Assembly: GCA_022822005.1 (NCBI GenBank)
Contig: JAJECO010000009.1
Coordinates: 1-64,000 of the forward strand
Direction: 5' to 3'
Source of the DNA: Candidatus Poribacteria bacterium
GTDB taxonomy: Bacteria > Poribacteria > WGA-4E > PCPOR2b
Length of the DNA stretch: 64,000 nucleotides
Part shown: piece by piece, positions 36,787-41,460 of the stretch
Position numbering within the stretch: the first letter of the stretch is position 1
Layout: each line of letters begins with the position of its first letter
Position numbers and translations under genes: made by a program
Notes under the pieces: generated by a model
Told to the model about the DNA's origin: nothing
What the model saw: only the letters and a program-made list of their open reading frames with translations
Databases searched by the model: none

Positions 36787-37381
36787 CCTGTGTTTAGGAA
36801 GTCAATTATGGTAAAAATTATAATTACTGATACATTTGAATAATAACCACTGGTGTTAGTTTGCAGCTGTTAATAACGTCAAACGTGATGCCCCGATAAA
36901 TCCCCGATGAATCGGGACAGGCGGGACAGGCTGTGAAACATCAAAACTATTGGATCGTCGGTGCCTTTAGCCCCGGAGGGGCGGCATGTTTATAGTACAC
37001 GCATAAACAAATACCCCAAAGCCCCGGAGGGGCAACATGTGCAGCCGAAGGGTAGAACCAATGAGTTCCCCTAATGAATCAATGAACGTTTCAACAATGT
37101 GGGGAAGACCCTCTCACTAAATAGCACCAAAGGTTAATATGTATATTTATTTGTATTGTTCACCATAAGATAGTCGAGTGTCTAAAACTGTTTCCATTTT
37201 GAAGGTCTACAAAAAGATGGTTTTGTTGTTCTTATTTCATCGTCAATAGCCAAGTTCATTCAAGTCTTCACTATCTAATAAGTTGCTTGTATTGCAGGCG
37301 AGACTTGAGTTTTTTTAGTGTTTCGGCAAACCTTGCTGATATAAACTTTTTCATTAGCTAAATATAATCAGGGAAAGAGAA
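36787..37381. repeat. 595-base gap with several dispersed repeats
   Basis: From 36890 to 36932 the ATCGGGGAT element of position 21 appears inverted. At 36967-36990 and 37018-37046 lie two direct copies of the GCCCCGGAGGGGC element, 51 bases apart. The rest is AT-rich and holds no gene. A TATAAT at 37363-37368, shortly before the rmuC start, could be a -10 box, but no -35 is at the right distance. Confidence 0.6.
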
Positions 37382-39133
37382 ATGATTCAAATCGTGATAT
37401 GGATTGTTGTAGGTCTGTCGGTACTCAATCTAGTGCTTCTTGCTATAGTACTGAAGCGGTTGGCATCTAAAAAAGACGACTCGGTAGAGCAGGTGGGACA
37501 AGACGAGTTCCGATTCCTTCGTGAGGAGGTATCTAGGTCAGAACGGGAAATCAGGAATGAGATTAGGGCAAGCCAAGAGACTACGGCCAATACACTTGTG
37601 ACGAATATCAGTGAATTTAGCAAAACTCTTACTGCTCAAGTTGAAGGAATGAGAACCACAATTGATGAAAGGTTTCAGAGCTTGCAACAGAGTAACGACA
37701 ATAAGTTGGGGCAGATACGCCAAACAGTTACCGAACAACTCCAAAGCACTGTTGACACCCTTGTAAATACCGTTGGAGAGCTCGGCAAATCTCAAGACTC
37801 TCAACTTGAGAGTGTTAGGAAAACGGTTCATGACAGGCTTGAAGCCATGCAAACTAGCAGTGAGGAAAAGTCAGAACAGATGTATAAGACGGTCACTGGA
37901 CAACTCCAAAGCACTGCCGATACTCTCGTGAATACCGTTGGAGAGCTCGGTAAATTTCAGGACACTCAACTTGAGAATGTTAGGAAAACAGTTCACGACA
38001 GGCTTGCAGCTGTACAGACTAGCAATGAGGAAAAGTCAGAACAGATGCACAAGACTGTTACTAATCAACTTCAAAGTACCGCCGACACTCTCGTGAATAC
38101 CGTTGGAGAGCTCGGTAAATCTCAGGACACTCAACTTGAGAATGTTAGGAAAACGGTTCATGACAGGCTTGAAGCCATGCAGACTAGCAATGAGGAAAAG
38201 CTCGACCAGATGCGTAAAACAGTTGACGAACAACTCCAATCGACATTGGAAAAGCGACTTGGGGAATCTTTTAACATTGTTAGCAAGCGTTTGGAGGATG
38301 TGCAGCGTGGACTCGGTGAGATGCGGAACCTTGCTACGGGTGTTGGCGATCTCAAGCGAGTTCTAACGAATGTCAAAGCAAGGGGAATATTGGGAGAAGT
38401 TCAACTTGGATCACTTCTTGAAGAAGTTCTTACGCCAGATCAGTATAGTACAAATGTACAGATTCATGAGAATTCTCGTGAGGAAGTTGAATATGCCATT
38501 CGTCTCCCGGGGAATAATGATGTGCCAGATTCGTGTGTATGGTTGCCGGTTGATTCCAAGTTTCCGCTTGCAGATTACGACAGATTAGTTGATGCCGCTG
38601 ATGCTTCTGATGCGGAGGTTGAACAAAAAGCAACTCAAGCGTTCAGACGGGCAGTGCAAAACGAAGCGAAGAAGATTCAGGATAAGTACATTTCTCCTCC
38701 AAAGACAACGGATTTTGCTATTATGTTCTTGCCGACCGAAGGACTCTATGCGGAGGTACTTCGGACACCAGGCCTCGTTACAGAACTCCTACAAAGCTAC
38801 CGGATTGTTGTTGCAGGACCAACCACCCTCGCCGCTATTCTGAGCAGCCTTCGTATGGGCTTCCGAACTTTGGCAATTGAAAAACGTTCCAGTGAGGTCT
38901 GGGAGGTTCTCGCTGCTGTCAAGACTGAGTTTGGTAAGTTTGGTGATGTTATGGATAAGTTGAAACGTCAATTGAATACAGCCTCTAGGACTATTGATGA
39001 GACAGGGCGCCGAACACGAGCGATGGCGCGTGAACTGCGAACAGTTGAGGAACTTCCTCTAGAGGAAGCAACCGCACGGCTTGGACTTCCAGACAACGAG
39101 CAAGTAATTAACTTGGATAGTACGGATGACTAG
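37382..39133 (+). CDS. rmuC: DNA recombination protein RmuC with internal 55-residue repeats
   Basis: A 583-residue protein: one N-terminal membrane segment (residues 3-25), a long coiled coil, then the RmuC nuclease-like domain (about 315-560) with KARGILGEVQLGSLLEEVL, VDSKFPLADYDRLV and FAIMFLPTEGLYAEVLR. RmuC limits inversions at short inverted repeats in E. coli. Unusually, the coiled coil contains three near-perfect 55-residue repeats (residues 113-277) with flanking partial copies. The genomic context (rich in short inverted repeats) is notable but proves nothing. The start is the ATG at 37382 after GGGAAAGAGA. Confidence 0.9.
   Translation: MIQIVIWIVVGLSVLNLVLLAIVLKRLASKKDDSVEQVGQDEFRFLREEVSRSEREIRNEIRASQETTANTLVTNISEFSKTLTAQVEGMRTTIDERFQSLQQSNDNKLGQIRQTVTEQLQSTVDTLVNTVGELGKSQDSQLESVRKTVHDRLEAMQTSSEEKSEQMYKTVTGQLQSTADTLVNTVGELGKFQDTQLENVRKTVHDRLAAVQTSNEEKSEQMHKTVTNQLQSTADTLVNTVGELGKSQDTQLENVRKTVHDRLEAMQTSNEEKLDQMRKTVDEQLQSTLEKRLGESFNIVSKRLEDVQRGLGEMRNLATGVGDLKRVLTNVKARGILGEVQLGSLLEEVLTPDQYSTNVQIHENSREEVEYAIRLPGNNDVPDSCVWLPVDSKFPLADYDRLVDAADASDAEVEQKATQAFRRAVQNEAKKIQDKYISPPKTTDFAIMFLPTEGLYAEVLRTPGLVTELLQSYRIVVAGPTTLAAILSSLRMGFRTLAIEKRSSEVWEVLAAVKTEFGKFGDVMDKLKRQLNTASRTIDETGRRTRAMARELRTVEELPLEEATARLGLPDNEQVINLDSTDD
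37718..38212 (+). repeat. three tandem 165-bp repeats inside rmuC
   Basis: Units begin at 37718, 37883 and 38048, and a diverged fourth begins at 38213. Each encodes 55 residues containing TLVNTVGELGK and RKTVHDRL. The second and third units agree most closely. The repeat length is an exact multiple of three, so copy-number change keeps the frame. Confidence 0.9.
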
Positions 39134-39210
39134 GAGACTGAACTATGGTTGTTAGATGTGTAACTATACAAAAAATTTCAGATCAAAATGCAGCATAAGG
39201 AGTGCGATTA

Positions 39211-41460
39211 ATGCCCAGATGGATTACCGTTAATATTGTTGTCCTTCTCATCCTCTTCGTCGGGACCTTGTGTGCACACGAATCCGGATCGGCTAAATAC
39301 GTTGTGGAAGCCTACCGGCTTGAGCCCGGTGTTCCCGCTCCGAAGATCGACGGAAAACTCGACGATCCCGTGTGGCAAAAGGCAAAGCCCGTAAGCGGCT
39401 TCATCCAACTCGTGCCAGATCGGGGCAAACCCGCCACCGATGATACAGCGTTTTATATCGCTTACGACCCGCACCATCTCTACGTTGCCTTTCGGTGCTA
39501 TGATGCCTCACCGGATAAAGTTGTCAACCGCATTGTGAGACGAGGTGGAAACATCTACGACTCAGACGTGATATCCTTCTTTATGGATCCGCACCATGAC
39601 CACCGCACCGGCTATAAGTTTGCCACCACACCCGGCGGCGTCCAGAGCGATGCCTATCGCTTCGACGACATCCGCTCCGACTCTAGTTGGAGAGGCATCT
39701 GGTGGCTAGAAACAGGGATTGATGAACAAGGCTGGGTCGCCGAATTCAAGATCCCATTCGCCAATTTTCGTTTTCCCAATAAATCGGAACAGGTATGGGG
39801 ATTCGACGTTGAACGGGTACATCGGCGAAAAGATGAGGTCACCGTTTGGAAGCAAATGACCCAAGCCGGGGCGACTACCCGGATGTCTGATCTCGGACTT
39901 ATGGTCGGACTAAAAGACATCGGCGGCAGCAAACCGTTTGAAATTTCGCCCTATGTCTTAAGCGGAGTGTCCGACAAAGAATCGCTCGACGGTCAACTGG
40001 GGACAGGACTCGATGTTCAGTATAATCTGACAAGTACGCTCAAGACAAACGTCACCCTTAACCCAGATTTTGCACAAGTGGAGGCGGATCAGTTGGAGAT
40101 TAACCTGACTCGCTTTCCAACCCGTTTCCCGGAACGGCGTCCCTTCTTCGTTGAAGGAAACAGCTTTTTTGAGACACCATTAGAACTCTTTTATAGTCGG
40201 CGAATCGGAAGTCGAGGTGACATCCTCTGGGGCGGTAAGATGACCGGCAAGGTCGGCAGTTATTCCCTCGGTGTGCTCGGCAGCCAAACAGGCAATTTCG
40301 GAGCTCTGGAGATTGGCCAAGAGTCCGAATCTAAGGAGGAGGCATTATATTCGACAGTCCGATTGAAGAAAGATATCCTACAACGCTCCAGCGTTGGGCT
40401 GCTCTTCGCCAACAAAGAGCATCTTGAGGAGGAAGATGGCTACGGTCGAGTGGGCGGAGTCGACACAGATCTATTCTTTCTGAAAACCTATCGGTTGTCG
40501 GGACAATATGCGATGAGTTTTAATCCCAGCGAAGATCCAGAGAACGAAAACGCAAAGAATAAGGCGTACCTCGTCGAGCTTGCTCAAAGTAACTACCTCT
40601 GGAACGCCAGAGTGCGGATGGAGCGAATTGATCCCCTATTTGAGGCAAATGAGACAGGATTTCTCCGCAAGGAGAGATATCGCGGTTGGCAGCAGATGAA
40701 TTTCATGGGGACCTATATCCCTCAGTTCGGACCCCATCGAGCTGCTTTCCAGGTTCGTGGCAGGGCTTCCCAGAACCTGTTCACCGATACATATTTTGAC
40801 GATTGGGAACAGAACAATCCAGATCTGACCTTTTCACCGGAATTTGACGAGGATTCAATCAGTTGGAACATCAACGCTGGAGCGGATTGGAGACCCACCG
40901 AATCTTTCTGGGAGGGGATTGGCGTATCTTATGGACGGAGTCGGGAGGTTGAACTGACTGAGGTATTTACGACAGACGGATATGATTTTTCGGTTCTAAC
41001 AAACACTTCGCGCCCCGTTTCGGTTGGTCTGGATGGAGGGATAGGAAATTACTTCAATTTCTCGCGTCAGGCGGTGGGGAAACAGCGGCTGCTTGCCCTC
41101 TCAACCACTATCCGGCCGCGGAGTAATTTCACCATTGATCTTGAAAGTGGATATGCCCTAAGTTTGACACAAGAGGATGTCATTGATGGACGCTATTTCA
41201 CAAGTTCTCTGCGCGTCACCTATCTGTTTACGCGCGATCTATTTCTCAGAGTGTTCACACAAGCGGGTCGTGAGCGCACCACTTTTGATCAGATTGAAAC
41301 CACTGAAAACTACCTAGTCAGTACCCTCTTTGGTTGGGAATATAGCCCGAAAAGCCACATTTTCCTTGCGTATAATGAAGATTGGCGCACCAATAAAGGA
41401 GAGTTACAGTTAGGCGATAGAGTCGTCGTGTTCAAATTTTCTTATCTCTGGAATCTCTAA
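39211..41460 (+). CDS. outer membrane protein, CBM9-like domain plus DUF5916 barrel
   Basis: A 749-residue protein with a signal peptide (cleavage near LCAHESG). Residues about 30-220 form a CBM9-like domain: KIDGKLDDPVWQKAKPVS, FYIAYDPHHLYVAFRCYD and DVISFFMDP. Then follows the DUF5916 barrel-type region, with LNPDFAQVEADQLEINLTR, FPERRPFFVEG and many beta strands ending in YLWNL, as in outer membrane proteins. It probably binds sugars at the cell surface. AAGGAG at 39197-39202 is nine bases before the ATG at 39211; a GTG at 39202 lies inside that site and is rejected. Confidence 0.9.
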   Translation: MPRWITVNIVVLLILFVGTLCAHESGSAKYVVEAYRLEPGVPAPKIDGKLDDPVWQKAKPVSGFIQLVPDRGKPATDDTAFYIAYDPHHLYVAFRCYDASPDKVVNRIVRRGGNIYDSDVISFFMDPHHDHRTGYKFATTPGGVQSDAYRFDDIRSDSSWRGIWWLETGIDEQGWVAEFKIPFANFRFPNKSEQVWGFDVERVHRRKDEVTVWKQMTQAGATTRMSDLGLMVGLKDIGGSKPFEISPYVLSGVSDKESLDGQLGTGLDVQYNLTSTLKTNVTLNPDFAQVEADQLEINLTRFPTRFPERRPFFVEGNSFFETPLELFYSRRIGSRGDILWGGKMTGKVGSYSLGVLGSQTGNFGALEIGQESESKEEALYSTVRLKKDILQRSSVGLLFANKEHLEEEDGYGRVGGVDTDLFFLKTYRLSGQYAMSFNPSEDPENENAKNKAYLVELAQSNYLWNARVRMERIDPLFEANETGFLRKERYRGWQQMNFMGTYIPQFGPHRAAFQVRGRASQNLFTDTYFDDWEQNNPDLTFSPEFDEDSISWNINAGADWRPTESFWEGIGVSYGRSREVELTEVFTTDGYDFSVLTNTSRPVSVGLDGGIGNYFNFSRQAVGKQRLLALSTTIRPRSNFTIDLESGYALSLTQEDVIDGRYFTSSLRVTYLFTRDLFLRVFTQAGRERTTFDQIETTENYLVSTLFGWEYSPKSHIFLAYNEDWRTNKGELQLGDRVVVFKFSYLWNL

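Follow-up and report, generated by a model that had tools for sequence, protein, structure and literature searches.

The RmuC protein of Escherichia coli is predicted, in the accessible portion of its description (PMC1189080), to comprise a membrane helix, a coiled coil and a PD-(D/E)XK domain, and to act by cutting intermediates of recombination. It has also been linked to inversion at short inverted repeats, where its role, according to the excerpt available, is not clearly defined (PMC10270631). The same excerpt presents ShdA, the membrane-bound RmuC-domain protein of Shield, which breaks down DNA in vitro and confers protection from phage; truncated forms of ShdA without the anchor could not be cloned, and Shield is reported there only from Pseudomonas (PMC10270631). 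In a different setting, the coiled-coil arms of SMC proteins are functionally limited in length to periodic steps, of about 100 residues in a heptad coil, and the part of the study considered here provides experimental support for this limit (PMC5344682).

Here we analyze a 64,000-nucleotide stretch of Candidatus Poribacteria DNA (hereafter the window), taken from a genome of 6.0 Mb in 97 contigs, that harbors an rmuC gene with an in-frame tandem array in its coil. The encoded protein follows the order described in part for E. coli RmuC (hydrophobic N-terminal helix, coiled coil and RmuC domain; PMC1189080) and is about 30% identical to it over the aligned part, but departs from it in reading VE instead of PD in the putative active site, in its stronger hendecad signal and in its tandem units. 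ShdA, as characterized in the excerpt cited (PMC10270631), offers the precedent of a membrane-bound RmuC-domain nuclease, and a further likeness is that some plasmid-borne relatives of the window gene adjoin defence-type genes. Unlike Shield, however, the window locus places rmuC between genes identified by Pfam as an amidohydrolase and a DUF5916 gene, and no Shield match to the window protein was obtained in PADLOC-DB of 2023, a release that may hold no Shield model. Three plasmid relatives match the PADLOC model RTasRmuC, which covers RmuC in fusion or association with reverse transcriptases (E 2e-9 to 3e-8), whereas the window protein falls short of E 0.01 with this model. With the SMC arms, as far as the source consulted describes them (PMC5344682), the RmuC proteins studied here share coiled-coil rods whose natural lengths follow a periodic rule; they differ in that the rule takes the form of whole-turn repeat offsets in a hendecad rod and is known from sequence alone. 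The rod also recalls the tail of ZorA, a long helical cytoplasmic rod on a phage-defence membrane protein of Zorya (PMC11890865, in part).

Domain organization of the window RmuC and its repeat array

The rmuC gene (37382 to 39133, forward strand, as are all features below) encodes 583 amino acids, in which translation and Pfam place a hydrophobic N-terminal helix, a hendecad rod and an RmuC (PD-(D/E)XK-like) domain, in that order. The presumed membrane helix spans residues 4-26 (37391-37459), as judged from the translation; a structure model draws a helix at residues 2-29 with low confidence. Together with the strong 3.67-residue period of the coil, this hydrophobic segment gives the protein the membrane helix and coiled coil typical of RmuC, as read from its sequence. 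The RmuC profile (PF02646) matches residues 272-563 (38195-39070) with E 1.2e-77 and 261.4 bits against a cut-off of 26. The putative PD-(D/E)XK site includes Glu339 in a GE motif (38396-38398), which is E in all 27 members of the subfamily defined below and in 43 of 47 other RmuC proteins, and D391-S-K393 (38552-38560), with D in 27/27 and K in 25/27 subfamily members. Its first acid, Glu370 (38489-38491), stands in a VE replacing the PD; it is E in 26/27 subfamily members and D in 42/47 others. The likely catalytic residues thus appear to be present, with E for D at one place, and nuclease activity is predicted; this activity and membrane tethering are both inferred for the window protein from the RmuC literature. 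Since both structure models are of low confidence (mean pLDDT 41.8 and 54.1), the rod is deduced from periodicity. Only two solved chains were matched by sequence at E up to 0.1, with no RmuC among them, and these, a ribosome recycling factor (E 0.006) and apolipoprotein A-IV (E 0.03), were discarded as relatives and taken to reflect coil similarity.

A first-pass annotation had proposed in-frame 165-bp tandem repeats in the RmuC coil, and Tandem Repeats Finder (TRF; minimum score 50) bears this out, reporting an array at 37734-38213 with period 165, 2.9 copies, 87% matches, no indels and a score of 734; the sole other row within the window has period 11. In the protein register the array consists of three head-to-tail 55-residue units at 37739-38233, all in the single 583-residue frame: unit 1 (residues 120-174, 37739-37903), unit 2 (residues 175-229, 37904-38068) and unit 3 (residues 230-284, 38069-38233), the last of which overlaps the start of the RmuC profile. 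The annotation's interval, 37718-38212, covers the same 495 bases shifted by 21 with respect to this register. Three units are indeed present, but their description as nearly identical was overstated, because they share 83.6-85.5% of their DNA and 46-47 of 55 residues. Likewise, the additional partial copies exist in another form, namely one full-length diverged copy upstream (unit 0, 37574-37738), which is older and 34.5-41.8% identical to units 1-3 in protein and 54.5-58.8% in DNA, and a four-residue LQST start of another copy downstream. As had been proposed, the units lie between the N-terminal hydrophobic helix and the nuclease-like domain, lengthening the predicted helical rod without a frame shift. 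Each 55-residue unit corresponds to 5 hendecads, or 15 helical turns at 3.667 residues per turn, and the three units keep the hydrophobic stripe of the hendecad helix.

A VE-type subfamily of RmuC

For comparative analysis we surveyed RmuC in the order of the window genome, with single genomes elsewhere, in two other phyla, in one lone genome and in plasmids. The two phyla were sampled evenly (60 and 61 genomes) and contributed, respectively, the best 30 of 45 matches and all 14 matches; of the 21 plasmid records with an RmuC match, 7 were included. Three short matches (L024, L027, L029) were left out and L018 was dropped as a 132-residue frame with a stop. The 78 frames kept have at least 250 residues and a domain match, and reduce to 74 genes after the removal of four duplicated entries.

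The nuclease domains fall into two sets, 27 of the 74 genes being 0.53-1.0 identical to the window protein and the other 47 at most 0.33, with none in between. In a tree of 73 of the 74 domains plus E. coli RmuC (L096 was omitted as too short), the 27 genes form one group on a long stem of 1.01 changes per column, with support of 93/96, just below the star limit of the tool. This group spans Poribacteria, rhizobial and Sphingomonas plasmids, Anaerotruncus, Bacteroidota and one gene from each other surveyed phylum, and its active site reads E..VE..DxK as against the commoner E..PD..DxK: V is found in 26/27 members, whereas other RmuC proteins have P in 33/47. An alignment search of viral contigs retrieved six further members, four of them nearly one sequence and all reading VE; a single-protein search of viral contigs with the window RmuC found no relative. 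In the open-access literature we found no description of this VE-type subfamily and no paper that pairs RmuC with the hendecad.

The two members that depart from the DxK lysine, L028 and L008 (a copy in G009), carry Thr in its place and may, on this reading of their sequences, be catalytically dead partners. At L105 (G012:C148) two subfamily rmuC genes adjoin with one small frame between them, the second being L028.

Hendecad periodicity and internal repeats

The hydrophobic period of the window coil is 3.67 residues, with a power of 45 against a 95% shuffle limit of 6, and its heptad power at 3.50 is 0.0. A period of 3.64-3.68 recurs in all 27 subfamily coils (power 9-46, each with shuffle p of at most 0.003) and, judged by the peak without shuffles, in the six viral-contig members, four of which are near copies. 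Because 11 of the 37 other RmuC coils long enough to test also peak at 3.64-3.68 (three of the 11 not significant against shuffles), as does that of E. coli RmuC (3.65, power 11), and because the powers overlap (4-18 in the other coils), the signal is not exclusive: on sequence periodicity, the hendecad rod is the rule in the VE subfamily without being confined to it.

Internal repeats more than 5 SD above a phase-preserving background were detected in 13 of 64 coils, corresponding to 13/27 subfamily members and 0/37 others, so that 14 of the 27 subfamily coils have none above background. The best four offsets per gene comprise 22, 40, 51, 55, 62, 73, 84, 91, 110, 164 and 168 residues. This unmasked search favours in-phase offsets by construction. 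When hydrophobic positions were masked, with a different, full-shuffle background and a threshold of 6 SD, repeats were retained in 6/64 coils. Their offsets (40, 55, 73, 84 and 110) all deviate by no more than 0.1 turn from an integral number of turns of 3.655 residues. Elsewhere in the subfamily, too, coils hold internal repeats whose offsets, though different, are compatible with whole helical turns.

We consider that the array probably arose long ago and has persisted unchanged in number as an extension of the rod in an RmuC nuclease anchored to the membrane. Under this proposal, the helices would pair into a coiled-coil rod, to which the array adds about 25 nm (165 x 0.15 nm), and the rod would fix how far the nuclease stands from the membrane, the enzyme so tethered cutting or restraining foreign or recombining DNA there. 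Tandem recombination would supply changes in length, and selection would keep those that leave the hydrophobic stripe in register.

A rival view, to which we accord some standing while judging it rather unlikely, is that length has no function, that only helix register matters and that the array is a chance duplication which has been tolerated. It would agree with the variable position of the RmuC domain, which in the subfamily begins anywhere between residues 126 and 464 of the open frame (a 3.7-fold range), and with the rarity of DNA-level arrays, TRF detecting them at periods of at least 18 in 2/78 frames, the window gene and that of its sister species. On the other hand, purifying selection acts on the array (dN 0.023, dS 0.261, dN/dS about 0.09 between window and sister), as it does on residues 301-583 (dN 0.088, dS 0.607, dN/dS about 0.14). 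Two weaker points, drawn from few cases, also run against neutral drift. The sister retains the 165-residue array of the window, and in the nearest clade (window, sister, L031 and L004; support 99/92) the span from the start codon to the LxSTLExRL landmark is 284 residues in the window, 283 in L031 and 283 in L004, despite two different layouts of 55+55+55 = 165 and 91+73 = 164 residues. For this count, translation was assumed to start at the first ATG or GTG of the aligned region, and the sister, frame-shifted upstream, was left uncounted. Near-equal rod length reached by two routes hints at selection on reach in these sequences, in a sample of few genes where chance could produce the same result. 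By eye, the 55-mer is made of an 18-residue and a 37-residue block, and the 73-mer has a second 18-mer. An ambitious extension, which we regard as doubtful, is that rod length is tuned throughout the VE subfamily, a mobile tethered nuclease with a set reach being adjusted in whole-turn steps by interchangeable blocks of 18 residues (5 turns) and 37 residues. On this view the two layouts of the nearest clade would yield one reach, in the manner of the preferred lengths of heptad SMC arms.

Selection might instead act on the number of sites rather than on length, if the repeats bound DNA, protein or lipid. A sub-threshold Pfam likeness to apolipoprotein 11-mers (39 bits against a cut-off of 90) and a likeness to the ZorA tail, with E 2e-7 at best, would lend themselves to such a role, which we nevertheless hold to be improbable: the hydrophobic stripe takes up roughly one position in 3.67, a width as narrow as that seen in coiled coils, and both resemblances look like common coil composition. 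The ZorA profile touches the coil of the window protein only, with 21.2 bits against a cut-off of 190 and no match to the motor part included in Zorya, and its resemblance is probably due to composition, to judge from these scores. No ZorA was found annotated for a hendecad comparison in one stretch of E. coli ATCC 8739, and a search of 121 genomes yielded 13 weak ZorA matches, none above the cut-off.

Conservation of the array in a sister species

In the public genome collection the window gene is matched in two Candidatus Poribacteria MAGs, L030 being 87% identical in the best segment and L031 59%. The former represents the sister species (L030/G003, treated as one genome because the RmuC frame is identical in both entries), the flanks of which are about 91-92% identical to those of the window. 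All three units are present in the sister, in unchanged order. Unit by unit, the two species are 94.5%, 93.3% and 92.7% identical (units 1 to 3), as compared with 79-86% for all non-corresponding pairs, and because each unit matches its sister counterpart better than the neighbouring units, the triplication predates the species split. The units vary at 46 sites, of which 25 join units of like position and 2 join units of the same species, the other 19 being single changes or mixed patterns; concerted evolution of the units is rejected on these patterns. Three of the mixed sites (positions 86, 92 and 107) hint at one short conversion tract within a single lineage; this possible tract aside, the grouping by position indicates that units have not been gained, lost or homogenised since the split. 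The array is therefore older than the separation of the window and sister species, and its unit count has not changed since.

This bears on the expectation, raised when the repeats were first noted, that length would vary between strains, and on the associated view of a locus whose unit number changes often by slippage or recombination, tuning the length of the rod. In-frame units 84-86% alike, with exact runs of up to 39 bases, would suffice for occasional unequal recombination, and the possible conversion tract points the same way. The unit number, the variation of which between close relatives would mark a phase-variable or contingency locus, is nonetheless identical in the sister, the only close relative compared. 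The units keep their positional identity, and no frame among the 78 surveyed, beyond those of the window and sister, has a TRF-level array. The predicted strain-level variation is consequently unsupported, and this one comparison of two genomes of different species speaks against a rapidly varying locus, which we consider very unlikely. Species of the order do differ in coil length, the coils concerned having repeats of various sizes. As for an assembly or sequencing artefact, conceivable in a source genome this fragmented, it can be dismissed as exceedingly improbable because the longest exact repeat among the units is only 39 bases and the array is also present in the separately deposited genome of the sister species. 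We prefer, then, the reading of an old and stable lengthening of the rod.

The sister rmuC presents a 25-base deletion just after the hydrophobic helix (L030, 3000-3110), with the coil and nuclease in another frame and the remainder open. If the assembly is right, the anchored form is not kept in the sister, since the deletion shifts the frame of the coil relative to the helix.

Genomic context and mobility

RmuC scores above the cut-off in 17 of 72 genomes of the order. When 16 loci were compared using simple gene calls, neither neighbour of rmuC recurred beside another rmuC in 9, and the other 7 have an adjacent gene common to at least one other rmuC locus. Three congeners (G004, G001 and G002) possess both genes that flank the window rmuC, 206, 35 and 92 bases apart, respectively, without rmuC between them; G005, in which the flanking-gene match begins at a contig end, falls outside this count. 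Given these three sites without rmuC, the gene was either gained in the ancestor of the window and sister genomes or lost in the others, and a gain in that ancestor appears likely from this distribution. A defence island was considered and rejected for the window locus, where the adjacent genes are metabolic by Pfam. The DUF5916/CBM9-like neighbour (39202-41460) belongs to a large family in the genus, with 11-14 matches in each of 6 genomes. A dispersed repeat of about 365 bp (36800-37170) lies in the interval separating the amidohydrolase gene from rmuC. At least 53 matching pieces of it occur in the genome (40 of 296 first-look candidates scored), and the sister lacks it at this site, so that it may represent a MITE-like element active until recently.

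Divergence along rmuC is uneven. Between window and sister, dS is 0.26 (0.16-0.35) for residues 65-300 and 0.61 (0.47-0.78) for residues 301-583 (38282-39130), and twelve neighbouring genes range from 0.12 to 0.51, all below the nuclease part. In a three-way comparison of this part, the window is slightly closer to L031 (dS 0.46) than to the sister (0.57), with 0.74 between sister and L031. A plausible cause of the gap between coil and nuclease divergence is that the nuclease part recombined in one lineage.

On plasmids (rhizobial and Sphingomonas), three subfamily copies (L097, L099 and L103) have defence-type genes as neighbours, namely RloB, DUF4011, and multiubiquitin/ThiF together with TM0106-type genes. 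Of the remaining copies, one is beside a toxin-antitoxin pair and mobile elements and three (L100-L102) are among ordinary genes, so that the association of plasmid copies with defence is mixed (3/7, 1/7 and 3/7, respectively).

Implications

The most interesting part of these results is the growth of a rod that keeps its register, and possibly its length, within a distinct RmuC subfamily whose genes pass from one lineage to another. If near-equal lengths fail to hold in more genomes, the array would be an ordinary in-frame duplication in a coiled coil; if they do hold, the idea of coiled coils tuned in length would reach beyond SMC proteins to include a membrane nuclease. With its distinct active-site reading, its clear hendecad rod and its natural length variants, the VE subfamily provides ready constructs for the question of the distance between membrane and nuclease.
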